Below the pieces are notes generated by a model that worked only from the letters and a program-made list of their open reading frames with translations, ran no database searches and was not told the DNA's origin. From Pseudomonas cichorii (GTDB taxonomy: Bacteria > Pseudomonadota > Gammaproteobacteria > Pseudomonadales > Pseudomonadaceae), in assembly GCF_018343775.1 (NCBI RefSeq), contig NZ_CP074349.1, positions 1,230,001 to 1,294,000 of the forward strand: a stretch of DNA of 64,000 nucleotides. The letters run 5' to 3'. Made by a program: the position numbers and the translations under genes. Position 1 is the stretch's first letter, and every line of letters starts with the position of its first letter. Shown piece after piece: positions 8,669 to 26,489 of the stretch.

Positions 8669-9174
8669 GTGTGACATCCCTGTGGTGCTTTGCACCTTTT
8701 TTATTGTTTATAGGCACTGCTTGAACAACAACGCACAAGGCCCTGCATATCAAACGATGCATTGCTTCAGGTTGATGCGAATCCATGAAGTGTTCAAAGG
8801 CACAGATAGACTGTCGGCCTTCAGACGCGAAGTGCCTGTCAATGCCTGTGTTACGCGCAATACGTAACGTGCATGGATTTTTCTAGCGTAATCGGAGTGC
8901 TCGCAGGGAACGGCAGAGCAAGGGTGACGGGAACGGAAGCGGCAGTGCGGTGCGTTCTTGAAGGCGCATATAGGAAAACCTGGCAGATTGTTTTTATTTT
9001 GATTTTCTGTAGCGAGTCTTTCAAAGTGGATCGGGAGTATTGAAACTTCCCGGGGCAGATAATGACCCACTGAAAAAACGCGCCGAGATTAACATCAAAA
9101 TAATGGCCAGCAAATTATTTTGATAAAGCTGTCCCCTTGGCCGTGATAGGCGCACGTCATGGAAGGGATATTCG
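8669..9174. other. Intergenic region upstream of the oxygenase
   Basis: About 500 bases without a convincing gene. It holds the presumed promoter region of the oxygenase operon and runs to the hairpin behind the LOV kinase gene. The short open frames here have no ribosome sites or composition supporting translation. Confidence 0.5.
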
Positions 9175-9204
9175 GTGCCTGTTGCACGTAGCCGCAACAG
9201 GCAC
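9175..9204. terminator. Hairpin after the LOV kinase gene
   Basis: GTGCCTGTTGC (9175-9185) pairs perfectly with GCAACAGGCAC (9194-9204), an 11-bp stem and 8-nt loop, starting 7 bases beyond the kinase stop on the minus strand. No U-run follows, so it may act as an mRNA end-stabiliser rather than a classical terminator. Confidence 0.55.
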
Positions 9205-9210
9205 TGTCAC

Positions 9211-10812
9211 TCAGGCTACGCCGTTGGGACCGTCGAGCACCTGGCGTACTTTTCTGGCGAGATCGTGAGGCATGCAAGGCTTGGACACTACTTCAAACTC
9301 GGTACCGCCCAGGTCAGTCCGCTCGATAGAGCTTTCGGCGTAACCCGTGGTCAGCAGCACCTTGATTTTCGGGTAGCGCCGTTTCACTTCCCTGGCCAGC
9401 ATCACCCCGTTCATCCCGCCCGGCATGATCAGGTCGGTGAAAAGCAGGTCATACGTCTCGCCGCTTTCAAAACGCTTCAGCGCTTCCCGGGCATTGAGCA
9501 CCATGTCAGTGACGTAGCCGTAATCTTCCAGCACCATCTTGGCCAGCTCTGCGACGTCGGGTCGATCCTCGACGATCAGGATGCGTTCGCTGCCAGTTTT
9601 GCTGGCAACCGGTGTAGCGTGGTCATGAATGCTGATGCTGGCATCATCCACCGGGAAGTAGAGGCGCAGTGTGGTCCCGACATCTTCCTCGGAGTAGATC
9701 CGCGCCGCTCCGCCCGATTGCTTGGCAAAGCCATAGACCATCGACAGCCCAAGACCGGTGCCCTGGCCTTCTTCCTTGGTCGTGAAGAACGGGTCCATAA
9801 CCCGGTCGCGAATGCTGGCAGGCATGCCGATGCCATTGTCTGTGATCGAAATACTCACGTAACTGCCCGGCAGCAGGCCGTCATAAGAGACGCTGGCCAG
9901 GTCCTTCACGATGATGTTTCGCGTTTCGATGAACACCCGACGGTCCTGCCTGCCAATCAGCGCATCCCGTGCGTTGATCAGGATGTTCAGCAGAGCAACT
10001 TCGGCCTGGCTCGGGTCGAGGCGACAGTTGAGAAGGGCGGGCTCAAGGCTGTACTCAACCGGAACTTCTGCACCGAAAGTACGCTCGATCAAGGCCTCCA
10101 TGCCCGTGACCACCTGATTGAGGTTCAGCACCCGGCCTTGCAGCTTCTGCTTTCGGGCAAAGGCCAGGAGTTGCTTGGTCAGGGTGCTGGCACGGTCAAC
10201 GGCCGACTTGGCGTGCTCGACGCTTCGTTTGATGCGAGGGACATCGATGCTGGACTTGTCGGTGGCTGAGTCGATCAGGCCGATGTAACCCCCCATGACC
10301 TGCAACAGGTTATTGAAGTCATGGGCAATCCCGCCGGTCAATTGGCCCAGTGCTTCCATTTTCTGGGCCTGACGCAAGGCATCCTCAGCATCCCGGCGGC
10401 GGCTGACATCCAGTTGTGAGGCGAAAAAGTAAACAAGATCGCCATTGTCATTGAAGACTGGCGACATGAACAGGGCGTTCCAGAACGACGAGCCGTCCTT
10501 CTTGTAGTTCAGGATTTCCGTCGCGATGTCTTGTTTGTCTGCAATGGCCTGGCGCAAGGCGGCGACAACTGCACGATCCGTTTCCGGCCCTTGCAGAAAG
10601 CGACAGTTACGGCCCACGATCTCATCGGCTGAATAGCCCGTCATCTCGAGAAAAGCCTGATTGGCAAAGATGATCGGATTATCCGGGCGATGAGGGTCGG
10701 TAAATATCATCGGCATCCGGGTGGTTTCGACGGCTGCAAAAAAGATATCTTTTTGTGGATGAGAGATATCACCCGTTACCCGGTTATTCACCCGGACTTT
10801 ACTATCGCTCAC
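9211..10812 (-). CDS. LOV-domain hybrid histidine kinase (blue-light receptor)
   Basis: A 533-residue protein: a LOV/PAS domain (about 20-140) with the flavin-binding motif GRNCRFLQ and the photo-adduct Cys at residue 70, then a HisKA_2-type dimerisation segment with the phospho-acceptor His164 ([11 protein letters not shown]). An HATPase domain (NILINARDA near 270; [11 protein letters not shown]) and a C-terminal receiver with phospho-acceptor Asp460 ([10 protein letters not shown]) follow. This is the architecture of the characterised P. syringae LOV-HK photoreceptor (PSPTO_2896 in DC3000). FMN forms a cysteinyl adduct under blue light and kinase output changes. The start is GTG with a GAGGGTGGG site upstream. 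No dedicated response regulator lies beside it. Confidence 0.95.
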
Positions 10813-10965
10813 ACACCCACCCTCAACGCTCGGTCACATCAGTGAACTATAAGAGCGTTATCTTGCCTGTTCGGTTCCGAAGGGTGATGTGCGGTAGGGC
10901 AAAAGAGTTGGGGTGAGGTAGGGACTGCCTGTAGGTAATCACCCGTCGTCTCGGCGTAGTAGCCG

Positions 10966-10990
10966 GTAGGAGCGGATTTATCCGCGAGAC
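10966..10990 (+). repeat. REP-type palindrome
   Basis: A GTAGGAGCGGATTTATCCGC core, a typical Pseudomonas REP: a GTAGGAGC tag followed by a short imperfect palindrome (GCGGAT / ATCCGC). It is intergenic, upstream of the LOV kinase gene, and shares its tag with the REP units at 18137, 24648 and 48187. Confidence 0.7.
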
Positions 10991-11008
10991 GTCATTGATG
11001 TCGCAAAG

Positions 11009-11036
11009 TTTCTAAACTGCCTACACGGCAGTTAAG
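11009..11036 (+). repeat. Solitary 28-nt sequence resembling a type I-F CRISPR repeat
   Basis: The 28 nt contain CTGCCTACACGGCAG, the stem-loop of type I-F repeats, with the flanking TTTCTAAA and TTAAG. Against the P. aeruginosa I-F repeat as I remember it, about 24 of 28 positions agree. It matches the copy at 14662-14689 at 22 of 28 positions, in the same orientation. No second repeat at spacer distance and no cas gene is present, so this is not an array. Confidence 0.55.
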
Positions 11037-11215
11037 CCAACACTTTGCCAATAACCCCTCGTTTTAAAAGCAAGACCATGGCTAGAGCGCTGTTTTACCC
11101 TTTTTCGAGGCTTTTAAGTCATTGATTTTAAAAGGAGCAGGAGGGGGCTGAAAAAAGAGGATCAGAACCCGGCAGGCCTTTGCCAAAAGCCTGCCGGGCT
11201 AAAGTCAATCTCGCT

Positions 11216-11761
11216 TCACATCACGAATCGTTTGCCACCCAGGGCTTCCAGCAGTTTGCGCCATATTCCTCGTCTGGGTTGGGGGGCCACCTCCATGACC
11301 ACATGCGGCACATCCCTGAATCGAATCCATGATTCGCTGCGCCATTGCAATACGCTCAGGGCATTGCCGAACCATTGCATCTGATTCAGGTTGGGTTGAT
11401 CGCCCTTGACTGCATGTTGCTGATGCAAAACCGGCAACACCTCATGGGTCAGCCAGTGGCGCAAGGCGCGATTTTCGGGGATGTAATGATGAACCAGCAT
11501 CGCAAACACACCGGACTCACTGAGCAGCATGCACTTTTCCCAACGGCCATGGGCATGCAGCCAGGCGGTGCGACGTTGATCGGGGTCGAGCTTGAGGGTG
11601 GCGCGTTCGTCCAGCATTTTGCCCATCAGACGCGCAAGGTCCGACAGGCAAAACCATGCCTGAGCGTCACACGTGACGGCACGCAAGGCGCGGTGATGGC
11701 GGTTGAAAACGAGGGCTTCAAATTGTTCTGTGCAGGGCGCAGAGGGATTGAGGGGGTACAT
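11216..11761 (-). CDS. BRO-N domain protein (prophage antirepressor-like)
   Basis: A 181-residue protein. Residues about 14-115 match the BRO-N fold found in phage antirepressors: FCLSDLARLMGKM, then WLHAHGRWEKCMLLSESGVFAMLVHHYIPENRALRHWLTHEVLPVLHQQ. The C-terminal 60 residues are specific to this protein. BRO-N domains bind DNA. The ATG at 11761 is chosen because AGGAG sits 8 bases upstream. The frame stays open for another 46 codons upstream through a structured leader element (11871-11986), so an N-terminally extended form is possible. There are no other phage genes near it. Confidence 0.75.
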   Translation of the reverse strand: MYPLNPSAPCTEQFEALVFNRHHRALRAVTCDAQAWFCLSDLARLMGKMLDERATLKLDPDQRRTAWLHAHGRWEKCMLLSESGVFAMLVHHYIPENRALRHWLTHEVLPVLHQQHAVKGDQPNLNQMQWFGNALSVLQWRSESWIRFRDVPHVVMEVAPQPRRGIWRKLLEALGGKRFVM

Positions 11762-11870
11762 CGGCGTAGCTCCTGGATGATTGAAGCTGCCACACAACGT
11801 CGCTAAACGAATGGGTGGCAGCTGTGCGAAGGTTAGCGAACCGGTATCCAGAGAACCGGCAGACCCGAAG

Positions 11871-11986
11871 GTCTCCGACGCACAGCCGCCATAACGCATA
11901 CCTCAAGCATAAGCCTGAAGTATTCGGGGGACGCTGAAACGTCTGGATAATCGGGTCGCTAAACCCTGCCGCTGATTTTGCAGCGG
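11871..11986 (-). promoter_or_regulatory. Structured leader element, copy 1 (upstream of bro)
   Basis: Read on the minus strand: a CGCTG...CAGCG hairpin, then GGGTTTAGCGACCC (a hairpin with CGATT after it), then a C-run, then TGCGTTATGGCGGCTGTGC, then GGAGAC. The same blocks in the same order occur at 14388-14514. It lies 110-226 bases before the bro start and is read in the same direction, so it looks like a 5' leader with RNA structure. The function is unknown. Confidence 0.55.
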
Positions 11987-12079
11987 ACGGCGCGGAGACT
12001 AACGCGCACTGCAAGACGTGGCAACTGCTGGCCGTTCGATGCCTGTTTCAATCACTGCCCATTGCGAGAGGCCCGCCAC

Positions 12080-13327
12080 CTAATCACGCCAGACCGGCAT
12101 CAACCGCTCATCAATCACCCAATGAGACTGCCCAGGACGTATGCAGACACCACCGACCCAACGCTCATGAGCGGCATGCTCCAGCCAATATGCCTCACCC
12201 CTCAAAACCTGCTTGCCCAATGGCGTAATCGTCAACAGGCGACGAGGCCATTCCAGATGAGCCTCCGACTCGATCAGCAAGGGGCGCGGAGTATCGATCA
12301 GCGGTCGCATCATCGCGTGAAACATCATATCCCCCAGAAACGGCAGCGGCTCGCGTTTGGCCATCAGTTCGGCGAAAACCCTGCCGCATGCCACGGGGCC
12401 AGCCTCGTCCACATACTGCAAAGTCAGGCGCTCAGTGAGCGACAAGCCATCGCGAATACCCGGTAACTCCTGCAATTGCCGTAACAGCGCGGGCGCGAGA
12501 AAGGGCAGGGCGGCGTTCGGTTCATGAGCCAGTTTCGCCAAGGCCGCGGGAGATGAATCGCAATAAGCCAGCCACGCCTGACGCGCCAACAACAGCGCGT
12601 CCTCATCCACCCGCCTGCGCTGTGGCCAAAGCCAGGCAAGTACATCGGGCGCCAGTTGCCCGATGCCGATGAAGCGCTGAACGCCGGGCACCCGATCCAC
12701 CTCGATCAGCTCAAGCTTGCGCGGCAGACGCTCAAGCCCCGCCAGCGCCCGTATCAGGAAAAGCTGATCATAAGCATCCGCTTCGCACCACAGCACACTA
12801 TGGTCGGCGTCGCTCAACTGCGAGAGGTTGGAATATTCATCATCGAACCGTCGTGCGGCGTCGGCCACATCAACCCCGAAAGCCTCGTTGATGAACTGGC
12901 TGCGCAGCGCCTTGTACGCCTCGGCAGGCAGATCCTGGACCGGCCCCATGCACAGCGGGTCCGTCAGCATCCGGAACGAACCCTTGAAACCTGCCAGTTG
13001 CAGGCTGTGCGCAATGTCGTTGCCGCAACGCCAATGCACGGTACGCGCTTCGTCACTCGCCTCGAAATCCGGATGCCGCGCCGCAAACTCCACCGCATCC
13101 ACATGGGCCTTGAGCTTGGGCCAACTGCTGAAACCCAGTTCCCGGGCGATCAGCCACTGGGCATCGGACAAGGTCACAGACGCGGAGGCATAAGTGCGTG
13201 AAATCATCGAAAGCTCATCAGGCGCAGCGCCATTTTTCATGCGCTGCAAAAGCGCCTTGGCCCGCTTGCGCTGCTGCTCAAGGTTGATACGACCGTCATT
13301 GGACAATGACGCAGAACGAGTAGACAT
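12080..13327 (-). CDS. DUF1835-type protein with N-terminal helical segment
   Basis: About 415 residues. The first 75 (LEQQRKRAKALLQRMKNG, then LSDAQWLIARELGFSSWPKLKAHV) match a segment often found at the start of ankyrin-repeat-type proteins. Next is a domain with the DUF1835 pattern: VHWRCGNDIAHSLQLAG, then DPLCMGPV, and later SVLWCEADAYDQLFLIRAL. The C-terminal part has a winged-helix-like LLTITPLGKQVL. No biochemical role is known to me. The ATG at 13327 has AAGGAGA five bases upstream. It shares strand with bro and the toxin-antitoxin genes but lies more than 300 bases from each. Confidence 0.65.
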   Translation of the reverse strand: MSTRSASLSNDGRINLEQQRKRAKALLQRMKNGAAPDELSMISRTYASASVTLSDAQWLIARELGFSSWPKLKAHVDAVEFAARHPDFEASDEARTVHWRCGNDIAHSLQLAGFKGSFRMLTDPLCMGPVQDLPAEAYKALRSQFINEAFGVDVADAARRFDDEYSNLSQLSDADHSVLWCEADAYDQLFLIRALAGLERLPRKLELIEVDRVPGVQRFIGIGQLAPDVLAWLWPQRRRVDEDALLLARQAWLAYCDSSPAALAKLAHEPNAALPFLAPALLRQLQELPGIRDGLSLTERLTLQYVDEAGPVACGRVFAELMAKREPLPFLGDMMFHAMMRPLIDTPRPLLIESEAHLEWPRRLLTITPLGKQVLRGEAYWLEHAAHERWVGGVCIRPGQSHWVIDERLMPVWRD

Positions 13328-13674
13328 ACGATCTCCTTGCACAAACCTTGTCCGCTTGAAGGTCGGGAGTCGTAATGACGAATGCGGGGAAGCATGATCC
13401 TGGGCGCAGCCCTTTCCGCGGGTGGTGGCGTGGATAGCGCCGGGCTGGAATATAGGCAACGGACACGATGAATGCAATGTTCACCTGGCTAACAGGCATA
13501 TCACTTTGTGGGACCGGATTTATTCAGGAAGGCGTTACCGAATAACCATCCGGATGCTGCTGGCCACAGCTCGTCGCGGCCAACGTATTCCCACCAGTGA
13601 CAGGTATGCCTTAACTGATCGGCATTAGGAGGTTTGGCCCCTGATCTTGAGAAATCAGAGGCGGTGATGTTGAG

Positions 13675-13995
13675 CTATTTGAACAATTCAGCATGGCTGC
13701 CGAGATCGACAAAGGTCACTAGATCGGCTCGGGCCATGTCATAAATCAGAAGAAAGTCTCCGCCGATGTGACATTCCCGATACCCGGACCATTCTCCCTT
13801 CAGTGCATGATCCAGATACTCGGGAGGTAACGGCTCCCCCAAGAACAGCATCACCATAACCTTGCGGACTTCATTCATGTCGCGAAGCCCTGCGCGCTTA
13901 TAACGCTCCCAGGACTTTTTAAATTCAGGTGTCTGCGTGCACTGTTTTGGCAGGTCGGCGCGCTTTTTTTTCTTTTCCGGTTTTGCCGTCAGCAT
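13675..13995 (-). CDS. YafQ/RelE-family mRNA interferase toxin
   Basis: A 106-residue protein. It begins with a basic stretch (KPEKKKKRADLPK), then the YafQ pattern: TPEFKKSWERYKRAG, LPPEYLDHALKGEWSGYRECHIGGDFLLIYDM, and LVTFVDLGSHAELFK. The His, Asp and Phe positions correspond to the active-site residues of E. coli YafQ, which cuts mRNA on the ribosome. Its start lies 71 bases inside the antitoxin gene, and no later ATG, GTG or TTG precedes the conserved core. The KKKK region is therefore encoded in an overlap with the antitoxin tail. Confidence 0.85.
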   Translation of the reverse strand: MLTAKPEKKKKRADLPKQCTQTPEFKKSWERYKRAGLRDMNEVRKVMVMLFLGEPLPPEYLDHALKGEWSGYRECHIGGDFLLIYDMARADLVTFVDLGSHAELFK

Positions 13996-14245
13996 CCCTT
14001 AACATGTCATCGAGAGAGTCGAACTGACGACGAATTTCACGCGCTTGTGCCATGGCCTGAGCGGTTTTTTCTGAAGGGGCGCGAACCTCGAAAGGCAGCC
14101 CTTGAGTTGCCACAACTTGGCGGAGAAAAAGACGCAAGCCGTCACTGAGGGTCAGCCCGCATGCATTCAGTACTGCGGTGGCACGATCCTTCAACTCCTC
14201 GTCGATGCGACAACGCACGTCAGTGGTTTTAAGTGTTGCAGCCAT
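13925..14245 (-). CDS. RelB/DinJ-family antitoxin
   Basis: About 106 residues. The ribbon-helix-helix N-terminus (TTDVRCRIDEELKDRATAVLNACGLTLSDGLRLFLRQVV) is typical of DinJ/RelB antitoxins, and the charged C-terminus would wrap the toxin. The ATG at 14245 is preferred because a GGAGGGAG site lies about 8 bases upstream; an in-frame start at 14323 would add 26 unrelated residues. It overlaps the toxin gene by 71 bases. RelB-type proteins repress their own promoter, and a repeated GCTACGT motif lies upstream. Confidence 0.85.
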   Translation of the reverse strand: MAATLKTTDVRCRIDEELKDRATAVLNACGLTLSDGLRLFLRQVVATQGLPFEVRAPSEKTAQAMAQAREIRRQFDSLDDMLRDADGKTGKEKKARRPAKTVHADT

Positions 14246-14270
14246 GATCTCAGCTCCCTCCGCTTGATAT

Positions 14271-14293
14271 GTAGCTACGTTGTGGCTACGTAA
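14271..14293. promoter_or_regulatory. Candidate antitoxin operator
   Basis: GTAGCTACGT (14271-14280) and GGCTACGTAAC (14284-14294) give two tandem GCTACGT boxes 11 bases apart, about 30 bases before the antitoxin ATG. Paired half-sites in this position fit autorepression by a ribbon-helix-helix antitoxin. Confidence 0.45.
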
Positions 14294-14387
14294 CGATGGT
14301 GTCATTCCATCAAGTTTTGGCAAGTGCTTTTTGTCTTGGGCAGAACTTCAGCCAGTCCGTACGTCTTGAATCATGAGGCTGACAAGT

Positions 14388-14514
14388 CGTCTCCCAAGGC
14401 GGTAGGCACACAACCGCCATAACGCAGTGCGCAGAAGAGTTAATCGACTGCTTCGCGATGGGGGGGAATTTATCTTTAAATCGGGTCGCGAAACCCGGTC
14501 GCTGCAGGCAGCGA
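14388..14514 (-). promoter_or_regulatory. Structured leader element, copy 2 (upstream of toxin-antitoxin)
   Basis: Read on the minus strand: CGCTGCCTGCAGCG palindrome, CCGGGTTTCGCGACCCG hairpin followed by ATTT, a run of seven C, ACTGCGTTATGGCGGTTGTG, then GGGAGAC. The same order of blocks is seen in copy 1 at 11871-11986. It lies 143-269 bases before the antitoxin ATG and is read in the same direction. Function unknown. Confidence 0.55.
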
Positions 14515-14661
14515 ATGTCGGGAGGGGTAGCTTGGGGGGGCTATGGGGAGTAGGTGGTTGTAGGGCTGGTGTGAGTGTGACGTAGGATTTGACGGTTATG
14601 AAGTGGGATAGGGCTGCTTGGGCAGTTAATGCAATAATGAGTAAATAAATTTTCTGCTGAT

Positions 14662-14689
14662 CTTCTTAGCTGCCTATACGACAGTTAAC
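14662..14689 (+). repeat. Second solitary type I-F CRISPR repeat-like sequence
   Basis: TTCTTAGCTGCCTATACGAC continues into AGTTAAC. About 24 of 28 positions agree with the P. aeruginosa I-F repeat as I remember it; the stem has one mismatch. It has the same orientation as the copy at 11009, and the pair brackets the bro to antitoxin segment. Confidence 0.55.
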
Positions 14690-14999
14690 AAGACACTCTT
14701 CTCGATTTTCGCGTGTTTGCGCTCCCCTATAGCTGCTTAACCCAGCGTGCTCGGCCTCGGGCAAGGCCATAATCGCTTGTCAGCTCAATAAGTTCAAAGC
14801 TCTCAATTTCAGTAGGGTGTAGACCTGATTTCATTGGTGTTTATAAAACACCGCGTTAGCCATTGACAGAAAATCGTAGTCTAGCGATGATGGCTTTTGG
14901 CTATGCTGGTGCGGGGAATCCCTTTGCTAGCAAAATTTTGGCAACAAATTCTCAGTTCAGCTCTTGCCAAACAGCACCACATCGATTCAAAGGAATGAT
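14690..14999. other. Gene-free spacer before the ATPase/TOPRIM-like pair
   Basis: About 310 bases with no supported gene. The sequence becomes AT-rich from about 14810, which looks like the left composition boundary of the following two-gene unit. Confidence 0.45.
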
Positions 15000-16580
15000 A
15001 TGAGTAGTATTAATAGTTTTGGTGTTGAGCAGCTTCGTAGTTTCGGTGAAAAAGAACAGCTCATACCTGTGAAGAAAATTAATGTATTTGTTGGGAAAAA
15101 TAGCTGCGGGAAAAGCACGTTTTTAAGAACTTATCCATTGTTGCGTCAATCAGTGGAGTCAGATACGCGTACCCCGATACTGTGGTACGGTGCATATGTT
15201 GATTTTGGTGATTTTAATACTGCTCTTCATGATGGCGGGAATGAGATTACGTTTGATTTTGATACAACTTTAGATATTGTAGATACAGCATTGTACGATG
15301 GTTGGGAGTGGAGTCATGTTAGGGCTAGTGCTCTTTATTTGGATGAGAGCAGTGTAGAACATCCTGCAAATATAAAAATAAAGCTAAGAAGGCGGGATAG
15401 AGAAAGTTTGATCACTACTATAATATTTAGCCTGTATGGTTCTCAGGTTAAGCTTACCTACTCAGGCGAAGAAGTTCTTTCTTTAGAGGTGGAGTGCGTA
15501 GAGTTAAAGATTAAGGATTCGTACCCTGTTTCAGTTGTTTTTAACAAGGGGGCAATCATACCTCGTGTGGTTCGAGATATACGAGAGGTGACCATAAAGA
15601 ATCAAGGCAAGCGCAAAGTTATTGTTGATACTATGCATGTGGAGCCTGTGAATAAAATGATTAAGTTTTTATCTAAATATCATCACAAGGCTAAACAGGA
15701 GCGTAAGATGAGGGAGCAGATTTCCACAATTCCTTTCTCTTATGGTGCCGATCTTTATGGGCACATTAAAGAGGCGTTTTCTTCGGATAAATTCTTCTTG
15801 AAGAAGTTGGATGAGAATGCGCAGTATATTACCAAGGTGTGTTTTAATTATATATTGGCTCAGCATATTCATTCATTTTGGGGGGGGGCTGATGACCTGT
15901 TTAAAAACTTCTTTGGCGGTGTTCGATATCTAGGTCCTCTTAGGGCTTCTGCAGAGCGATTTTACAGGTATCAAGATTTACAAATTGCAGAAATTGACCA
16001 TACGGGTGCTAACCTGCCTATGGTAATTAACTCTCTTGATGCAAGGAAAAAGCGAGAGTTAAGCGACTGGATGTTCTCAAATTTTGGTTTTAAAATTGAG
16101 CTGGTAACTACTGGTCTTCATTATGCTATCCAAATAAAAGAGGAGCATGATGATAAGTTTCATAATGTTAGTGATATGGGGTTTGGTTATTCTCAGATTC
16201 TTCCTGTGATTGTTTCTATCTGGTTGGAGCTAGTTGATAAGGGTAAGGGGGTTAGGCTGAAGAAAAATAAATCAAGGACGATAGTTATTGAACAGCCTGA
16301 ACTGCATTTGCATCCAGATTTGCAATATAAGTTTGGCCTGGCAATTGCTAAGGTTGCATCGCTCGCTGATTCAAAGAGCTTTAACTTTGTTATTGAGACT
16401 CACAGCAAGCATTTGATCGACGCATTAGGAAAAAGCGTACGTAGTAATGTTATGGATGAAAGTGATATTAATATTACCTTGTTTGAAAAGGAGAAGAATG
16501 GAAAAACTTTAGTGTCTTTTTCTGGCTTCGATGATGAAGGTTATCTTATCGACTGGCCTGCTGGCTTTCTATCGGCGTAA
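15000..16580 (+). CDS. ABC/OLD-type AAA ATPase, candidate defence component
   Basis: A 526-residue protein. Walker A is GKNSCGKST (residues 32-40) directly after a SMC/RecF-like first strand (INVFVGKN). The ABC signature region is SDMGFGYSQILPV (around 400), Walker B is IVIEQPELHLHP with Glu431, and the H-loop is FVIETHSKHLIDAL with His468. The long middle insertion is family-specific. This is the AAA_15/AAA_21 layout of OLD, Gabija, Septu and PARIS ATPases, but no nuclease domain is fused. The ATG at 15000 is preceded by AAAGGA; a TTG 36 bases earlier is less likely. Codon use is strongly AT-rich (ATA, TTA, AGA common), unlike its neighbours. Four bases separate it from the next gene. Confidence 0.8.
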   Translation: MSSINSFGVEQLRSFGEKEQLIPVKKINVFVGKNSCGKSTFLRTYPLLRQSVESDTRTPILWYGAYVDFGDFNTALHDGGNEITFDFDTTLDIVDTALYDGWEWSHVRASALYLDESSVEHPANIKIKLRRRDRESLITTIIFSLYGSQVKLTYSGEEVLSLEVECVELKIKDSYPVSVVFNKGAIIPRVVRDIREVTIKNQGKRKVIVDTMHVEPVNKMIKFLSKYHHKAKQERKMREQISTIPFSYGADLYGHIKEAFSSDKFFLKKLDENAQYITKVCFNYILAQHIHSFWGGADDLFKNFFGGVRYLGPLRASAERFYRYQDLQIAEIDHTGANLPMVINSLDARKKRELSDWMFSNFGFKIELVTTGLHYAIQIKEEHDDKFHNVSDMGFGYSQILPVIVSIWLELVDKGKGVRLKKNKSRTIVIEQPELHLHPDLQYKFGLAIAKVASLADSKSFNFVIETHSKHLIDALGKSVRSNVMDESDINITLFEKEKNGKTLVSFSGFDDEGYLIDWPAGFLSA

Positions 16581-16583
16581 AAA

Positions 16584-17606
16584 ATGATATTTATTATTGA
16601 CGCAGTAATCGATTTTTCGACCAGTTTTGACTCGAAGGTTAGAGCGCTGGATAATATTTTATCGGCGCATGGAGAGGGAAAGCATGTTTTGTGGGCTCCT
16701 ATTGAGGTTGTAGAAGCGTTGCAAGATGTTCCGCAGCTTAGTTCATACTCGAAGCGAGTTTTGTTTAGTTTGAAGAGTACTGTCATTGAGACTCGCAGAA
16801 TAGAGAGGCAGTTTGATTTTCATGTTGTTGTTGAGTTTGATGATGGGGCGCGGATGGAGCTTGGTGAGGGGAGGTTGAATGTCGGGTTTAACTATTTTTT
16901 AGATACTCGAATGTTGCAGCCATCTATATTGATTACTGAGAACTTACTTGATGCAAGTGCGTTGGAGTGTGGTGCTGCTTTACATTTGGTAGGGAATAAG
17001 CTGCTTTCCGCATTTGGTGTTGTTTTGGATTTTAGGCCGGGGGGTGGAAGTACTACTTATGATCTTTTTAAAGACCTAGTATCGCAAGGAAGGTTTTTGT
17101 TGTGCGTAATTGATAGTGATTTAAAGCATCCTAAAGGGCCTAAGGGTAGTACTGCGAAAAGATTTCGACACGAAAAATTAGGTTTGAATCTTGCTTATCA
17201 TCTGGAGATTTTAGGGTGCCATGAGATTGAAAATATATTGCCTGTAAATGTTGTCAGGGATCTAGTTCCTCGTGCACAAACACCTTGCTTGTTATATTCA
17301 TCCTCCAAGTATCACCGTTATCGTCCTTATCCAGATCATAAATTTGGTTTGAGAGTTTCGACAGCTCGTCAATCGGATCTTGAGTTTAATAGTGACTATT
17401 GGTCGGAGTTTAATGGTTGTGACGATGAAGTATGGATATGTGCTCCTTTGGGGGAGTCTCTGCTACAGAATAGTGTGCAAAAAATGAAGGAAATGTCACC
17501 GCATAAACTATATGAGTCGTTAAATAAAACGGCCGATGAAGAGTGGATGCGTGTGAGTAAATTGGTCGCTTCGTGGGGCGTAGGAGTTAGGCGCGTAATT
17601 CCATAA
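16584..17606 (+). CDS. Protein with TOPRIM-like motif set, partner of the ATPase
   Basis: A 340-residue protein with no family I can name with certainty. Residues about 115-220 carry the TOPRIM order: a strand ending in Glu119 (ILITENLLDA, with Asp123), a glycine loop GGGS (153-156), the DxD motif after a hydrophobic strand (LLCVIDSDLKHP, Asp177 and Asp179), and HEIENILP (213-220). These resemble the catalytic acids of OLD-type and DUF4435/AriB nucleases. The first 110 residues do not belong to that domain. It begins 4 bases after the ATPase stop, so the two are one transcript. Composition is AT-rich throughout. A nuclease effector gated by the ATPase is the best reading, but untested. Confidence 0.6.
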   Translation: MIFIIDAVIDFSTSFDSKVRALDNILSAHGEGKHVLWAPIEVVEALQDVPQLSSYSKRVLFSLKSTVIETRRIERQFDFHVVVEFDDGARMELGEGRLNVGFNYFLDTRMLQPSILITENLLDASALECGAALHLVGNKLLSAFGVVLDFRPGGGSTTYDLFKDLVSQGRFLLCVIDSDLKHPKGPKGSTAKRFRHEKLGLNLAYHLEILGCHEIENILPVNVVRDLVPRAQTPCLLYSSSKYHRYRPYPDHKFGLRVSTARQSDLEFNSDYWSEFNGCDDEVWICAPLGESLLQNSVQKMKEMSPHKLYESLNKTADEEWMRVSKLVASWGVGVRRVIP

Positions 17607-17737
17607 TGAGTAGTGGTAGTCGTATATGTTATAAGCATTTTTTTATTTTTCAGTCTGCGGTTTTTTGTGCTGTAGGCCTTGGTGGTTGGTCGTGGGAGTT
17701 TGGTTTTACAAAGCTTTATATTTAAATCTACTTTTTC

Positions 17738-17767
17738 GGAGATGGCTATGGTTCATCGCCGTCTCCG
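17738..17767. terminator. Hairpin downstream of the ATPase/TOPRIM-like pair
   Basis: CGGAGA (from 17738) pairs with TCTCCG (to 17767), with an inner GGC/GCC pair. It is preceded by CTTTTT. It is the first stem-loop after the pair, but no T-run follows it. Confidence 0.35.
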
Positions 17768-17891
17768 AGTCAACAATGGTTTATCGATAGGTCTTTCGGT
17801 CTGCAAAAATGGTAGCAGTTAAGGGTTGCTGACCCGATGAGATTTACCCACGACTTTCGTGTGGACAGTGTATTTCATTGGGAGGACTACT

Positions 17892-17951
17892 ATGAGTGTC
17901 GCGGACAAGCTTTCTATAGGTTACTGCCAATCAATTAAGGTCATGAATTAA
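17892..17951 (+). CDS. Possible 19-residue peptide or gene remnant
   Basis: ATGAGTGTCGCGGACAAGCT opens a 19-codon frame ending in TAA at 17949. A strong GGGAGGA ribosome site lies 5 bases upstream. The peptide (MSVADKLSIGYCQSIKVMN) matches nothing I know. It could be a genuine small ORF, a leader, or the surviving start of a deleted gene cut off by the REP pair that begins 6 bases later. Confidence 0.3.
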   Translation: MSVADKLSIGYCQSIKVMN

Positions 17952-17957
17952 TTTATG

Positions 17958-18038
17958 GGAGGCAGCTTGCTGGCGACTTCACGTACAGACGCAGAATATC
18001 TGTCGGTTTCAGGCCTTTTTCGCCAGCAAGCTGCCTCC
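17958..18038. repeat. Long inverted repeat (REP pair, BIME-like)
   Basis: GGAGGCAGCTTGCTGGCGA (17958-17976) is exactly complementary to the sequence at 18020-18038: a perfect 19-bp stem with a 43-base spacer. The GGAGGCAGCTTGCTGGCGA type is a common Pseudomonas REP class, here in head-to-head arrangement. Confidence 0.75.
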
Positions 18039-18136
18039 TGCAAGCTTGCGTGTGCCTCAAATGATCGGCATCGGGATCTGCAATGTCGGAGGGAGAGGCC
18101 GGTACATTCAAGGAATATGTATTGTCTGGAATGCCG

Positions 18137-18160
18137 TCTCGCGAATGAATTCTCTCCTAC
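18137..18160 (-). repeat. REP-type palindrome
   Basis: On the minus strand GTAGGAGAGAATTCATTCGC: tag GTAGGAG plus the GAATTCATTC core shared with the units at 24648 and 48187. Confidence 0.65.
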
Positions 18161-18246
18161 TCAGGTAGCTACTTTCTTTCATTGGCACGACGATAGTTGT
18201 CGCCTGTAAGCGGGCTCCAGGCTCAGCAACCAACAAAATCCAGGCA

Positions 18247-18277
18247 CAAAAAAACCGGCTTAGTGGCCGGTTTCTTT
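18247..18277 (-). terminator. Intrinsic terminator of tRNA-Leu
   Basis: On the minus strand AAACCGGCCACTAAGCCGG is followed by TTTTTTT, a GC-rich stem plus U-run 40 bases beyond the tRNA 3' end. Confidence 0.8.
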
Positions 18278-18316
18278 CAAACCCAAGCTCTGCAACCGCT
18301 TGAGTGTCTTGCTATA

Positions 18317-18401
18317 TGGTGCCCCGAGGGAGACTCGAACTCCCACTCCTTTCGAAAACGGATTTTGAATCCGCCGCGTCTACCAATTCCGCCATCAGGG
18401 C
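18317..18401 (-). tRNA. tRNA-Leu (anticodon CAA)
   Basis: Read on the minus strand: acceptor GCCCTGA pairing with TCGGGGC, D-arm ATTGGTAGAC, anticodon arm CGGA-TTCAAAA-TCCG with anticodon CAA (decodes UUG), long variable arm as expected for class II tRNA-Leu, T-arm GGGAGTTCGAGTCTCCC, and an encoded CCA. It lies between the accessory ATPase/TOPRIM-like pair and queA, a typical position for integration of foreign DNA, although no repeat of the tRNA 3' end was found on the far side of the island. Confidence 0.95.
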
Positions 18402-18518
18402 TCAATGGCGGCGAAGTATAGGGATGCGCATATCATTGGTCAACAAGGTTTTTTGCAGGTTTTTTACTAATCCCTCCAAACCGGATAAACTCCCCGGCCC
18501 TGCTAATCGAACACCATC

Positions 18519-20713
<2,195 letters not shown>

Positions 20714-20766
20714 AACAGAACCGATTTTTCGTGTTTCTTATACTAATTATGCAATTGGAGCGCTAA

Positions 20767-21102
20767 ATGAGCTTTTTCATCTCTCCCGCTTTCGCGGATG
20801 CTGCTGCACCGGCTGCCGGTCCTGCGGGCACCGGCTTTGAGTGGATCTTCCTGGTCGGCTTCCTGGTCATCTTCTATCTGATGATCTGGCGTCCACAGGC
20901 CAAGCGCGCCAAGGAGCAGAAAAACCTGCTCAGCAACCTGCAGAAGGGCGATGAAGTCGTTACTACGGGTGGTATCGCTGGCAAGATCAACAAGGTGACC
21001 GATGACTTCGTGGTGATCGAGGTTTCCGACACTGTTGAGCTGAAGATCCAGAAGGGCGCTATCGCTGCCACTCTGCCAAAGGGCACCCTGAAAGCGATCT
21101 GA
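20767..21102 (+). CDS. yajC: Sec translocase accessory protein YajC
   Basis: A 111-residue protein with one membrane helix (about 24-42, FEWIFLVGFLVIFYLMIWRPQ) followed by the conserved RPQAKRAKEQKNLLSNLQKGDEVVTTGGIAGKI domain. YajC joins SecD and SecF in the holotranslocon. A GGAG site lies upstream of the ATG (TTGGAGCGCTAAATG). It stands between tgt and secD on one strand. Confidence 0.96.
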   Translation: MSFFISPAFADAAAPAAGPAGTGFEWIFLVGFLVIFYLMIWRPQAKRAKEQKNLLSNLQKGDEVVTTGGIAGKINKVTDDFVVIEVSDTVELKIQKGAIAATLPKGTLKAI

Positions 21103-21163
21103 GTACCATTTTTACCAATCGACGGGGCGCGCAAGGCGCCCCGCGTTCTAAGCGGGCGGCGTG

Positions 21164-23032
21164 ATGCTGAACAAATACCCTCTGTGGAAATACGTACTGA
21201 TCCTGGCGGTGCTGGTGGTCGGTTTCATTTATTCCGCACCCAATCTCTACCCTGACGACTCGGCTATCCAGATCAGTGGCGCGAGTACTGCGTTGCAGGT
21301 CAGTCAGGCGGATCTGGACCGTGCAGGCAAGGCGCTTGCCGATGCCGGTATCGCGGTCAAGGCCTCTTCTCTGGCTGAGAATGGCAAGGGCGGTTTGTTG
21401 CGTCTGAGCAAGCAGGAAGATCAGTTGCCAGCCAAGGATGTGGTGCGCAAGGCGTTGGGTGATGACTATGTCGTCGCACTCAACCTGGCCCGTACTACCC
21501 CGACATGGTTGCGTAACCTGGGCGCAAGCCCGATGAAGCTGGGTCTGGACCTTTCCGGTGGTGTGCACTTCCTGCTGGAAGTGGACATGGACAAGGCCAT
21601 CGATGCTCGCCTGAAAGTCTATGAAGGCGAAGTCAAAACCCTGTTGCGTAAGGAAAAGGTGCGTTATCGCAGCCTTCCACAGGTCAACAACGTCATTCAG
21701 TTGGGTTTCACCGACGATGCCGAGCGTGAACAGGCCCGTGCCCTGGTCCGCAAGACCTTCACCGATTTCGATATCACGCCTGCCGAGTTGAACGGTATTC
21801 CCGTTCTGCGTCTGGCGCTGACAGCCGTCAAGCTGGCTGAAATTCGCGATTACTCCATCAAGCAGAACTTGACCACCGTACGTAACCGGGTCAACGAGCT
21901 GGGTGTTGCCGAACCTCTGGTTCAGCGCCAGGGCGCCAACCGTATCGTGGTTGAGTTGCCGGGCGTGCAGGACACTGCCGAAGCCAAGCGTATTCTCGGC
22001 AAGACAGCCAACCTGGAGTTCCGTCTGGGCGCAGGTCCTGATGACTCCAAAGGCACGACCGAGATGTTCGAGTTCCGCGAAGGCGGACGTCCGGCAGCAG
22101 CGGTCGAGCGTGGTCTGATCATTACCGGCGACCAGGTGACTGACGCCAAGGCGAGCTTCGACGAGCACGGCCGTCCACAGGTGAACATCAACCTCGATGG
22201 TCATGGTGGCGAGCTGATGAGCCGCGCAACCCGCAGCAACGTGGGTCGCAGCATGGCGGTGATCTTCATCGAGCAGCGTCCGGTCACGACCTATGTGAAG
22301 CAGATGGTCGATGGCGTTGAGAAAGACGTGCCGGTGCAGACTTTCAAGGAAGACAAGAAGATCATCAGCCTGGCGACCATCCAGTCGCCACTGGGCAGCC
22401 AGTTCCGGATTACCGGTCTGAACGGCCAGGGTGAGTCCTCCGAGCTGGCGTTGTTGCTGCGCGCCGGTGGTCTGGCGGCACCGATGTACTTCGCTGAAGA
22501 GCGCACCATCGGCCCGAGCCTGGGTGCCGACAACATCACCAAGGGTATCGATGCTTCCCTGTGGGGCATGCTGTTCGTTTCGCTGTTCATCATGGCGATC
22601 TACCGCTTCTTCGGTCTGATCGCGACGGTCGCTCTGGCCTTCAACATGGTCATGCTGCTGGCGCTGATGTCTCTGCTGGGTGCAACGCTGACCCTGCCGG
22701 GTATTGCCGGTATCGTTCTGACCATGGGTATGGCGGTGGATGCCAACGTGCTGATCTTCTCGCGTATTCGTGAGGAAATTGCCAATGGCATGAGCGTGCA
22801 GCGTGCAATCAACGAAGGTTTCGATCGTGCCTACACGGCGATCCTCGACGCCAACCTGACGACGCTGCTGGTCGGCGGCATTCTCTTTGCGATGGGCACC
22901 GGCCCCGTCAAAGGGTTTGCGGTGACCATGTCGCTCGGGATCTTTACCTCGATGTTCACGGCCATCATGGTGACCCGCGCAATGGTCAACCTGATCTACG
23001 GCGGTCGTGACTTCAAGAAGTTGTGGATTTAA
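21164..23032 (+). CDS. secD: Protein-export membrane protein SecD
   Basis: About 622 residues. One N-terminal membrane helix, a large periplasmic P1 domain (the LGLDLSGGVHFLLEVD motif near residue 125), then five membrane helices at the C-terminus (GMLFVSLFIMAIYRFFGLIA, then VLTMGMAVDANVLIFSRIREE, the RND-type proton-relay helix). It uses the proton gradient to complete translocation. GTG 21161 directly precedes ATG 21164; the ATG giving MLNKYPLWKY is the family-typical start. Confidence 0.97.
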   Translation: MLNKYPLWKYVLILAVLVVGFIYSAPNLYPDDSAIQISGASTALQVSQADLDRAGKALADAGIAVKASSLAENGKGGLLRLSKQEDQLPAKDVVRKALGDDYVVALNLARTTPTWLRNLGASPMKLGLDLSGGVHFLLEVDMDKAIDARLKVYEGEVKTLLRKEKVRYRSLPQVNNVIQLGFTDDAEREQARALVRKTFTDFDITPAELNGIPVLRLALTAVKLAEIRDYSIKQNLTTVRNRVNELGVAEPLVQRQGANRIVVELPGVQDTAEAKRILGKTANLEFRLGAGPDDSKGTTEMFEFREGGRPAAAVERGLIITGDQVTDAKASFDEHGRPQVNINLDGHGGELMSRATRSNVGRSMAVIFIEQRPVTTYVKQMVDGVEKDVPVQTFKEDKKIISLATIQSPLGSQFRITGLNGQGESSELALLLRAGGLAAPMYFAEERTIGPSLGADNITKGIDASLWGMLFVSLFIMAIYRFFGLIATVALAFNMVMLLALMSLLGATLTLPGIAGIVLTMGMAVDANVLIFSRIREEIANGMSVQRAINEGFDRAYTAILDANLTTLLVGGILFAMGTGPVKGFAVTMSLGIFTSMFTAIMVTRAMVNLIYGGRDFKKLWI

Positions 23033-23041
23033 GGGGCTGCC

Positions 23042-23953
23042 ATGTTACGTACCATCAACTTCATGGGCGTTCGCAATGTCGCGTTCGCCGTTACCATGCT
23101 CCTTACTGCACTGGCGCTGTTCAGCTGGTTCCATAAAGGGCTTAACTTCGGTCTGGACTTCACCGGCGGTACGCTGATCGAGCTGACCTACGAGCGTCCT
23201 GCTGATTTGGGCAAGGTGCGTGAGGAGCTGGCTTCGGCCGGTTTCCACGAGGCCGTGGTGCAGAGCTTCGGCGCGACCACCGACTTGCTGGTGCGCATGC
23301 CGGGTGAAGACCCGCAACTGGGTACTCAGGTAGCCGATGCGCTGCGCAAGGCGGGTGCCGATAACCCGGCGACCGTCAAGCGTGTCGAGTTCGTCGGCCC
23401 GCAGGTCGGTGAAGAGCTGCGTGACCAGGGCGGTATCGGCATGTTGCTGGCCCTGGGTGGCGTTCTGATCTATCTGGCGTTCCGCTTCCAGTGGAAGTTT
23501 GCGGTCGGTGCGATCATTTCCCTGATTCACGACGTGGTCGTGACCATGGGCATCCTGTCGTTCTTCCAGATCACGTTCGATCTGACGGTTCTGGCGGCGG
23601 TGCTGGCGATCATCGGTTACTCGCTCAACGACACCATTGTCGTGTTCGACCGTGTACGTGAAAACTTCCGCCTGCTGCGCAAGGCTTCGCTGATCGAGAA
23701 CATCAACATCTCCACCACCCAGACATTGCTGCGCACCATTGCGACTTCGGTCTCGACGCTGCTGGCAATCATTGCGTTGTGGGCGTTCGGTGGCGACAGC
23801 CTGGAAGGCTTCTCCATCGCGTTGTTCATCGGTGTTCTGGCGGGTACTTACTCGTCGATCTACATCGCCAACGTGATGCTGATCTGGCTGAACCTGACCA
23901 CCGAGGATCTGATTCCTCCGGTTGTCACCGAGAAGGCGGATGATTTGCCTTGA
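23042..23953 (+). CDS. secF: Protein-export membrane protein SecF
   Basis: A 303-residue partner of SecD. Motifs are GLNFGLDFTGGTLIEL (periplasmic), then the five-helix core with GYSLNDTIVVFDRVREN and TSVSTLLAIIALWAFGG. Ten bases separate it from secD. An intrinsic terminator follows at 23982. Confidence 0.97.
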   Translation: MLRTINFMGVRNVAFAVTMLLTALALFSWFHKGLNFGLDFTGGTLIELTYERPADLGKVREELASAGFHEAVVQSFGATTDLLVRMPGEDPQLGTQVADALRKAGADNPATVKRVEFVGPQVGEELRDQGGIGMLLALGGVLIYLAFRFQWKFAVGAIISLIHDVVVTMGILSFFQITFDLTVLAAVLAIIGYSLNDTIVVFDRVRENFRLLRKASLIENINISTTQTLLRTIATSVSTLLAIIALWAFGGDSLEGFSIALFIGVLAGTYSSIYIANVMLIWLNLTTEDLIPPVVTEKADDLP

Positions 23954-23981
23954 TGCCCCGCTAAAAATGAAGAAATGAAAA

Positions 23982-24011
23982 GGCGCGAGTTCGGAACTCG
24001 CGCCTTTTTTT
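23982..24011 (+). terminator. Terminator of the queA-secF operon
   Basis: GGCGCGAGTT-CGG-AACTCGCGCC (23982-24004) followed by seven T. Confidence 0.9.
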
Positions 24012-24074
24012 ATGCTCCAAGGCTTGGCAGTGCGTAGGAAAGAATCTACGCGTCCGTAGGTCAGGAGGTTCAAA

Positions 24075-24617
24075 GTGAACAAGTCTCTGCTTGTTGGTGC
24101 TGTGTTGGGTGCTGCTGTCGTTACCGCTGGTGGCGCTGTTGCCACCTACAGCCTGGTCAAGGGCGGCCCAGAGTATGCAGATGTGTTGGCCGTCGAGCCG
24201 ATCAAGGAACAAATCAAGACCCCTCGTGAGGTCTGCAAGGATGTAGCCGTTACCCATCGTGCTCCGGTCAAGGACGAGCATCAGATCGTGGGTAGCGTGA
24301 TCGGTGCTGTGGCGGGTGGCTTGCTCGGTAACCAGGTTGGCGGCGGTAACGGCAAGAAGATTGCCACGGTCGCCGGTGCGGTAGGCGGTGGTTATGCGGG
24401 TAACAAGGTTCAGGAAGGCATGCAGAACCGCGATACCTACACCACGACTGAAACGCGTTGCAATACCGTCAACGATATCAGTGACAAGGTCGTGGGCTAC
24501 AACGTGAAGTACAAGTTGAACGAGAAGGTTGGGCAGGTCCGTATGGCCAATGACCCGGGTAGTCAGATCCCTGTGGACAAGAATGGTCAGCTGATTCTGA
24601 GTCAGGCTGCTCAATAA
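24075..24617 (+). CDS. Glycine-zipper 2TM outer-membrane/periplasmic protein
   Basis: A 180-residue protein with an N-terminal export signal (KSLLVGAVLGAAVVTAGGAVATYSLV) and a glycine-zipper hairpin at about 75-115 (IVGSVIGAVAGGLLGNQVGGGNGKKIATVAGAVGGGYAGN), the Rickettsia 17-kDa/SlyB-type domain. A soluble C-terminal part contains VVGYNVKYKLNEKVGQVRM. There is no lipobox Cys after the signal. The start is GTG with a perfect AGGAGG 6 bases upstream. A cell-envelope role is expected. Confidence 0.85.
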   Translation: MNKSLLVGAVLGAAVVTAGGAVATYSLVKGGPEYADVLAVEPIKEQIKTPREVCKDVAVTHRAPVKDEHQIVGSVIGAVAGGLLGNQVGGGNGKKIATVAGAVGGGYAGNKVQEGMQNRDTYTTTETRCNTVNDISDKVVGYNVKYKLNEKVGQVRMANDPGSQIPVDKNGQLILSQAAQ

Positions 24618-24623
24618 GCCGTG

Positions 24624-24666
24624 ATGTGGGAGTAGTCGGGCTTATTCTCGAATGAATTCGCTCCTA
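24624..24666. repeat. REP pair
   Basis: CTCGAATGAATTCGCTCCTAC (to 24666) is a minus-oriented REP with the GTAGGAGCGAATTCATTCG core; a degenerate plus-oriented partner GTGGGAGTAGTCGGGC starts near 24626. Confidence 0.6.
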
Positions 24667-24680
24667 CGCTCAGCAGGCAT

Positions 24681-24708
24681 AAAAAAACCGGCGAAAGCCG
24701 GTTTTTTT
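24681..24708. terminator. Bidirectional intrinsic terminator
   Basis: Seven A, CCGGC-GAAA-GCCGG, seven T. It is symmetrical, so it serves both the glycine-zipper gene and suhB, which converge here. Confidence 0.92.
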
Positions 24709-24719
24709 ACATCTGCCAT

Positions 24720-25535
24720 TCAGCGTTTCAGCGAAGGCGGCAGGTGTGGAGCGATGGCAGTCAGGACTGCCTTGAAGCATTTGGTGTTGCCGGCAACGAT
24801 GTGGCCTTTCTCCAGGAAGTCGTGACCGCCTGTGAAGTCGCTGACCAGGCCGCCTGCTTCCTGAATCAGCAGTGCGCCCGCTGCCATGTCCCACTCGGAC
24901 AGGCCTGATTCCCAGAATGCATCGAAGCGACCGGCTGCAACATAGGCCAGGTCCAGGCTGGCAGCGCCTGCGCGGCGGATGCCGGCGGTCTGGCCGACCA
25001 GGCTGCGGAACATGCCCAGGTAGTTTTCCAGGCCGTCCATTTGCTCGTCGCGGAACGGGAAGCCGGTACCCAGCAGGGCGCCTTCAAGGCTCTTGCGCTG
25101 GCTGACGCGCAGACGACGACCGTTCAGTGCTGCGCCACGGCCACGGCTGGCGGTGAATTCTTCCTGGCGAACCGGGTCGAGAACAACGGCGTGCTCAAGG
25201 CGACCGCGGTATTTGCAGGCGATGCTGACGGCGAAATGGGGGATGCCACGAACGAAGTTGGTGGTGCCGTCCAGCGGGTCGATGATCCACAGGTAATCTG
25301 CGCCTTCGCCGCTGCCTGCGTGCAGGCCGCTTTCTTCGCCGAGGATGCCGTGGGTAGGGTAAGCCTTGCGCAGGGCGGTGATGATGCTCTGCTCGGCGGC
25401 ACGGTCGATTTCCGTGACGTAGTCTTTGGCTTCTTTTTCGTCAACCTTGATGGTATCCAAGCGCTCGATGGAGCGGAAAATCAATTCGCTGGCGCTGCGG
25501 GCGGCGCGCAGCGCGATATTCAGCATGGGCTGCAT
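24720..25535 (-). CDS. suhB: Inositol-1-monophosphatase / SuhB
   Basis: About 271 residues. Metal-binding motifs of the family are present: GEES (near 67), IDPLDGTTNF (near 85-94) and LSEWDMAAGALLIQEAGG (near 217). SuhB hydrolyses inositol phosphates; in E. coli it also joins the rRNA antitermination complex, and in P. aeruginosa it affects virulence-gene regulation. The ATG at 25535 (MQPMLNIALRAARSA) is preferred over an in-frame TTG six bases earlier. It is divergent from trmJ. Confidence 0.95.
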   Translation of the reverse strand: MQPMLNIALRAARSASELIFRSIERLDTIKVDEKEAKDYVTEIDRAAEQSIITALRKAYPTHGILGEESGLHAGSGEGADYLWIIDPLDGTTNFVRGIPHFAVSIACKYRGRLEHAVVLDPVRQEEFTASRGRGAALNGRRLRVSQRKSLEGALLGTGFPFRDEQMDGLENYLGMFRSLVGQTAGIRRAGAASLDLAYVAAGRFDAFWESGLSEWDMAAGALLIQEAGGLVSDFTGGHDFLEKGHIVAGNTKCFKAVLTAIAPHLPPSLKR

Positions 25536-25727
25536 GGACAATTCACCTAAGGTTGTTAAAGAGAGCCGGGTATTCTATGGGTTAAGTCGAATTATTTCCA
25601 GCCCCGGCATTGTCGTCCCGATCAGGTTTTACGATTTTCCGTGGCTGCGCCTCTGTAAGGTTCATGGCGTTAATGAGGCAGGTTCTGTAAGATTTGCACC
25701 CCTTAATTTTGTCGGTGAGCGCTCGCT

Positions 25728-26489
25728 TTGCTGCAGAACATTCGTGTTGTCCTGGTCGGCACTACCCATCCCGGAAATATCGGTGGGGCTGCGCGTGCCA
25801 TGAAAAACATGGGGCTTTCGCGCCTGGTACTGGTCGAGCCGCGTGTGTTCCCGTCTCCCGAGGCTGATGCGCGAGCGTCGGGTGCTGGCGATATTCTTGA
25901 AGGTGCGCAGGTCGTTGCGACCCTTGAAGAAGCGCTGGTGGGTTGCAGTCTGGTGCTGGGCACCAGTGCTCGTGATCGCAGTCTTCCCTGGCCAATGCTC
26001 GACCCGCGTGAGTCTGGCGTGAAGGTCGTCGAGCAGGCCGGGCAGGGCGCCGAGGTTGCGCTGGTCTTCGGTCGCGAGCATGCCGGCCTGACCAACGAAG
26101 AGCTGCAGCGTTGTCATTACCACGTCCATATCCCGTCGGACCCTGCATTCAGTTCGCTCAATCTGGCGGCTGCGGTTCAGGTACTGGCCTACGAAGTGCG
26201 CATGTCCTGGCTGGCTGCGCAGGAGTCGACGACAGCTCCAGTCGCAGCGGCGCGTAATGCCGAGCTGGCGACCATGGATGAGATGGAGGGCTTCTATGGT
26301 CATCTGGAAGCGGCGCTGGTGGACATCGCCTTTCTTGATCCCGAGAAGCCCCGTCATCTGATGGCGCGGCTGCGTCGCCTGTATGGTCGTAGCGAGGTGG
26401 AACGCTCCGAGCTGAGCATTCTGCGTGGCATCCTCACCGAGACCCAGAAAGTGGCTCGCGGTGAACCTTATAAGCGGAAGGATCAATGA
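25728..26489 (+). CDS. trmJ: tRNA (cytidine/uridine-2'-O-)-methyltransferase TrmJ
   Basis: A 253-residue SPOUT methyltransferase that methylates the 2'-O of residue 32 in tRNA. Motifs: [22 protein letters not shown] (motif 1), [18 protein letters not shown] (motif 2) and [22 protein letters not shown] (motif 3). The start is TTG at 25728, placing [10 protein letters not shown] at the N-terminus as in relatives, with GGTGAG upstream. Its stop overlaps the cysE start. Confidence 0.95.

Follow-up and report, generated by a model that had tools for sequence, protein, structure and literature searches.

What is an unusually AT-rich pair of genes doing near a tRNA gene in Pseudomonas cichorii? The stretch of DNA that carries the pair, called the window here, is 64,000 nucleotides long and represents positions 1230001-1294000 within a single 5.98-Mb contig. 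Gene A encodes an ATPase of the OLD/ABC (ATP-binding cassette) type, and gene B encodes a predicted TOPRIM-type nuclease. Together they very probably constitute a mobile, two-gene anti-phage module in which an OLD-ABC ATPase is partnered with a separate TOPRIM nuclease. In everyday terms, the pair resembles known bacterial anti-virus systems but has drawn little study, and it seems to form a new branch within a kind already described. The two genes are as follows.

15000..16580, plus strand: gene A (ATG at 15000, TAA at 16578-16580), OLD/ABC-type ATPase, AAA_15, 526 residues, putative sensor-like partner (open reading frame [ORF] translation, Pfam, PADLOC)
16584..17606, plus strand: gene B (ATG at 16584), predicted TOPRIM-type nuclease, 340 residues (ORF translation, predicted model)

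How is gene A assigned to this family? In Pfam, its product matches AAA_15 (7.6e-19; 69 bits against a cut-off of 32.1) and AAA_21 (50.8 bits). PADLOC returns 108 models at E values of 1 or less, headed by NsnB (1.8e-43), PDC-M55A (3.2e-34), HEC-03B (8.1e-25), and AriA (2.1e-20), while the seven NCBIfam models all score far under their cut-offs, with the retron Eco8 effector (3.6e-7) and MAD3 (4.4e-6) at the top. The family is large: of 8000 candidates scored, at least 1487 proteins reach an E value of 1e-30 or lower. Where close relatives of A and B are named, most are from Pseudomonas. Across 45 aligned sequences, A included, nearly every position is invariant in Walker A, the signature-like DMGFGYSQ (except Y397), EQPELHLHP, and ETHS. 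The conservation given in the lines below, and in those for B, refers to 20 A-B loci, namely, the window and 19 others, with L071 left out.

15093..15116, plus strand: Walker A, GKNSCGKS, A residues 32-39; G32, G37, K38, and S39 invariant in 20/20 loci
16290..16316, plus strand: Walker B, EQPELHLHP, A residues 431-439; E431, E434, and H438 invariant in 20/20 loci
16395..16412, plus strand: H-switch region, ETHSKH, A residues 466-471; E466, H468, and S469 invariant in 20/20 loci

What about gene B? Its product has no match in Pfam (0 families at an E value of 1 or less), NCBIfam, or PDB sequences, and PADLOC offers a single match that is weak and partial (PDC-M55B, 0.005, residues 147-257). Three of six scanned homologues do match PDC-M55B (P0017 at 1.1e-7, P0023 at 3.6e-5, and P0025 at 7.2e-9), and the other three (P0026-P0028) do not. 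Two protein database searches with B yielded 9 and 27 proteins, B itself counted. In the 27-row alignment, E119, N120, D123, G153-G155, D177, D179, P183, E216, N217, P220, K253, G255, and W273 are invariant. E119, G153, G155, D177, D179, E216, P220, and K253 are retained at all 20 loci although mean pairwise identity is 24%, so the motifs are not the product of chance.

16584..16910, plus strand: N-terminal alpha/beta domain of B, residues 1-109, fold uncertain (DSSP of the model; precedes the TOPRIM domain)
16938..16940, plus strand: Glu119, first TOPRIM acidic residue; 20/20 loci
17040..17048, plus strand: Gly-Gly-Gly 153-155, the start of GGGS 153-156; G153 and G155 in 20/20 loci, G154 in 19/20
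17112..17120, plus strand: DSD 177-179, the TOPRIM DxD; D177 and D179 in 20/20 loci
17220..17234, plus strand: HEIEN 213-217; E216 in 20/20 loci, E214 in 19/20, N217 in 17/20

The predicted model of B (predicted local distance difference test [pLDDT] score, 93.2; predicted template modeling [pTM] score, 0.91) displays a TOPRIM-like topology. In VIA-align, the best structural rows for this model are OLD, PARIS, Gabija, and retron Eco2, with OLD rows above PARIS rows by a margin of less than 2 Z units; Foldseek alone gave no significant match. The TOPRIM domain covers approximately residues 110-336 of the model, and Glu216 is likely the third metal ligand. Residues 1-109 drew only weak, partial rows in VIA-align, to which no fold name is assignable. 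A preliminary description of this DNA, made from its letters, had seen a two-gene unit of an OLD-type ATPase and a TOPRIM protein and had named the absence of a TOPRIM fold as evidence to the contrary. The Pfam and PADLOC matches of A, the predicted fold of B, and the invariant motifs bear that description out, and in the translations the motifs stand at the residues it gave.

Do the two genes belong together? They are tightly coupled and have coevolved. Both are on the plus strand, with a gap of 3 bases between them (16581-16583) rather than the 4 first reported. Seven of 398 same-genus genomes carry gene B (E value, 1e-3), and seven carry gene A (E value, 1e-25); the two sets of seven coincide, with the genome of the window among them, and in each genome the genes form an adjacent, same-strand pair. 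By tblastn, A and B are neighbours, as separate genes, in 20/20 further loci, nine of which were found via B and so test whether A accompanies B, not whether B occurs with A. Over the window and 19 loci, with some B starts approximate, the pairwise identities of A and of B are correlated (Mantel r, 0.95; 0/2000 permutations). One ATPase gene, in Exiguobacterium (L021), is annotated as longer, at 3009 bases, and was compared over its A-homologous part only.

Where do relatives of the pair reside? The survey of their contexts turned up mobile-element sites typical of defence genes and not the housekeeping operons that would have spoken against the preliminary proposal. In the Pseudomonas inovirus 62-2, the pair adjoins the repressor gene on the same strand, with identities of 46.5% for B and 49.2% for A. 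A provirus (L076) has the gene for a gpA-type nicking protein on one side of the pair and the portal gene on the other, as recognised with PHROGs, and a further locus (L078) has the same layout, judged by matching ORF starts. The gpA-gpQ gap is described as a hotspot: P2 carries old and tin there, and a defensive effect has been shown for several systems found in it (PMC9122126). Other pairs lie directly after a phage repressor gene (L073), among relaxase, ArdC, and integrase genes (L067), or beside an integrase and an HNH protein (L002). Four regions from the 48 plasmid records matching A were examined (Planococcus, Exiguobacterium, Lacticaseibacillus, and Ruegeria), and all have the ATPase followed by a protein of 327-400 residues. 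Within 8 kb, the Exiguobacterium plasmid encodes AlwI-type restriction and methylase genes, and the Lacticaseibacillus plasmid encodes type I restriction genes. The neighbouring proteins are not all defence-like, as a PADLOC scan gave one weak match among 10 of them.

The pair's own site can be compared with that of a near relative, G018, in which an array of clustered regularly interspaced short palindromic repeats (CRISPR) stands where the window has the pair.

14638..18092 (approximate), no strand: stretch missing from G018, which has a CRISPR array there (alignment with G018)
18317-18401, minus strand: tRNA-Leu(CAA), about 0.7 kb downstream of gene B

As the preliminary description had it, the pair is strongly AT-rich and close to a tRNA-Leu gene. 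GC content is 38.8% in gene A and 41.4% in gene B; of the 64 1-kb bins of the window, those at 15001-18000 are the three lowest (39.1, 39.8, and 41.6%), and 2.6-kb stretches of the window have a median of 57.8%. The tRNA gene sits before queA/tgt/secDF-type genes (names assigned by eye). Did the pair integrate there? No exact copy of 12 or more bases of the tRNA region occurs elsewhere within the window, and integration at the tRNA therefore lacks support. From the tRNA-Leu side, G018 and the window are 97-98% identical. On the other side, about 230 bases align (window 14406-14637) at 77-92% identity, and the genes beyond it are arranged differently in G018. A short, repeat-like piece of the window, 17930-18047, has its alignment at another point of the G018 stretch.

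At the pair's position, G018 carries 15 CRISPR repeats, which follow one another at a 60-61-base spacing over about 1.1 kb (L061 14371-15253). We take the repeat to be of type I-F, and a Csy3 gene is present in G018, about 36 kb from the array; together these suggest a type I-F array. Csy3 was not found in the window's own genome. The window does hold two lone CRISPR repeats, at 11009-11036 and 14662-14689 (minus), which match Rfam CRISPR-DR4 at 36.3 and 35 bits; the repeat pattern was found twice against 0.01 expected, and the second copy lies about 0.3 kb before gene A. An array in one strain and the pair in its sister means that this place receives different immune modules. The pair may have replaced a CRISPR array, or it may have entered beside the remnant of one.

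Is this a system that already has a name? Under a published rule, PARIS is an ATPase with AAA_15 at 32 bits or more, or AAA_21 at 27 or more, and a partner with DUF4435 (PF14491) at 27 bits or more (PMC9122126). A lies above both ATPase thresholds and B has the TOPRIM fold in its model, but B lacks DUF4435, and PF14491 has 0 matches across the window's own genome; by this rule the pair is not PARIS. Nor is it a fused OLD or GajA protein: OLD nucleases and Gabija GajA share with it the ATPase, the TOPRIM domain, and the motif order, whereas here two ORFs encode separate proteins. PADLOC's candidate PDC-M55 also comprises two adjacent genes, though the match of B to it is weak and partial, half of the scanned homologues lack it, and A is better matched by NsnB, which, with HEC-03B, is a related ATPase model. 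Searching the window's own genome with PDC-M55B gave nothing at 1e-3. In the literature searched, no mention of PDC-M55 was found, NsnB led to no phage defence work by title, and for NsnA none of the matches listed was relevant by title. Dyads of an OLD-ABC ATPase with a TOPRIM protein are in print, as are dyads with PD-(D/E)XK, HNH, and PIN proteins (Krishnan et al. 2020 as cited in PMC12839542). The pair shares their general architecture, an OLD-type ABC ATPase adjacent to a TOPRIM protein with E...GG...DxD. It is a member of this general kind, near PDC-M55, with an unnamed N-terminal effector domain. The earlier suggestion of a candidate new PARIS/OLD-like system thus stands as to the OLD-type ATPase/TOPRIM unit; it is not supported as to a new PARIS, for want of DUF4435, or as to a new kind, since this one is already known from published dyads and PADLOC candidate models.

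How might the module work? By analogy with PARIS, OLD, and Gabija, A, probably assembled into a dimer or something larger, would bind and hydrolyse ATP and sense a trigger borne by the phage. It would restrain or position B until infection releases or activates the nuclease, which would then cut nucleic acid with the help of metal ions coordinated by Glu119, Asp177/Asp179, and Glu216. For the N-terminal domain of B, the most likely role is to dock B on A or to choose the target. AriB of PARIS cuts tRNA, and OLD and Gabija cut DNA. Could B be a functionally split counterpart of the latter, restricting the DNA of phages or plasmids directly and leaving the host alive? This is possible but rather unlikely. 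OLD and Gabija are among the best structural rows; against this reading, the two genes are separate in the window and in 20/20 loci, and inspection by eye of the ORFs listed for 9000-26000, where no profile search of the neighbours was aimed at a helicase, recognised no GajB-like, UvrD-like helicase beside them. A divergent PARIS is more doubtful still. B would then be AriB with an added domain and would cleave tRNA of the host once A detects an anti-restriction protein, for example Ocr. The split between an OLD-type ATPase and a TOPRIM nuclease is shared, and PARIS chains are among the best rows for B, but B has no DUF4435 match, OLD rows outscore PARIS rows, albeit narrowly, and PADLOC prefers NsnB, PDC-M55A, and HEC-03B over AriA for A. 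Furthermore, the Toprim mutant residue of AriB is reported as Glu26 (PMC12409363), which places the AriB TOPRIM domain near the N terminus, while that of B begins near residue 110, with Glu119; in position, at least, the extra domain of about 110 residues is, as first claimed, unlike AriB. That the pair instead serves the host in maintenance or repair, or acts as toxin and antitoxin, is highly improbable, for although a cell-cycle role is reported for the archaeal OLD-family ATPase Cran1 (PMC12796447), the pair is patchily present in its genus and its relatives occupy prophage, plasmid, and integrative-element sites.

Beyond the anti-phage module itself, it is conceivable, if somewhat short of an even chance, that the pair represents a lineage of its own within split OLD-ABC/TOPRIM immunity, distinct from both PARIS and split OLD and carried by prophages, integrative elements, and plasmids of Pseudomonadota and Bacillota. 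In this lineage the effector's N-terminal domain would set a new docking or target specificity, and in some mobile elements the ATPase family would have a different nuclease in place of the TOPRIM effector. In prophage P2-EC5, a relative of A (ORF555; PADLOC NsnB, 1.1e-49) is followed by ORF333, which has weak PD-(D/E)XK matches (0.0042 and 0.08), and the partner on the Vibrio plasmid p337 resembles ORF333 by eye. On the Leclercia plasmid p707804-3FII (L106 4687-5971), the partner is only 197 residues long, directly borders an IS1 element, and has motifs that by eye are TOPRIM-like; that of Vibrio phage L9-1 resembles, by eye, neither type. None of the partners on p337, the Leclercia plasmid, and L9-1 has a Pfam family above the cut-off. 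Nuclease exchange beside OLD-ABC ATPases has already been described (PMC12839542). A sibling lineage whose effector has an additional domain, together with ATPase relatives that appear to use other nucleases, would offer a handle on what the ATPase senses and would allow the choice between RNA and DNA targets to be tested. Natural variants are at hand in the P2 gpA-gpQ hotspot, the inovirus, and the site that holds a CRISPR array in G018.

Other features of the genome and of the surrounding sequence may be mentioned. The same genome (G000) contains two more OLD-like TOPRIM matches (C1:1053998-1054192 and 4164644-4164838), in open frames of 839 and 671 residues. Just upstream of gene A (13675-14323, minus), two small overlapping genes have, by eye, the look of a RelB/DinJ-YafQ-type toxin-antitoxin pair. 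Next comes a gene of 465 residues (12080-13477, minus) without a PADLOC match at 1e-5, the G018 counterpart of which is 91% identical in DNA. At 11216-12002 (minus) are a C4 antisense RNA (77.8 bits), a subthreshold match to the C4 target, and, by eye, an antirepressor-like gene. In G018 the C4 antisense RNA unit is present twice, with a 995-base period, immediately before the CRISPR array (L061 12338-14308).
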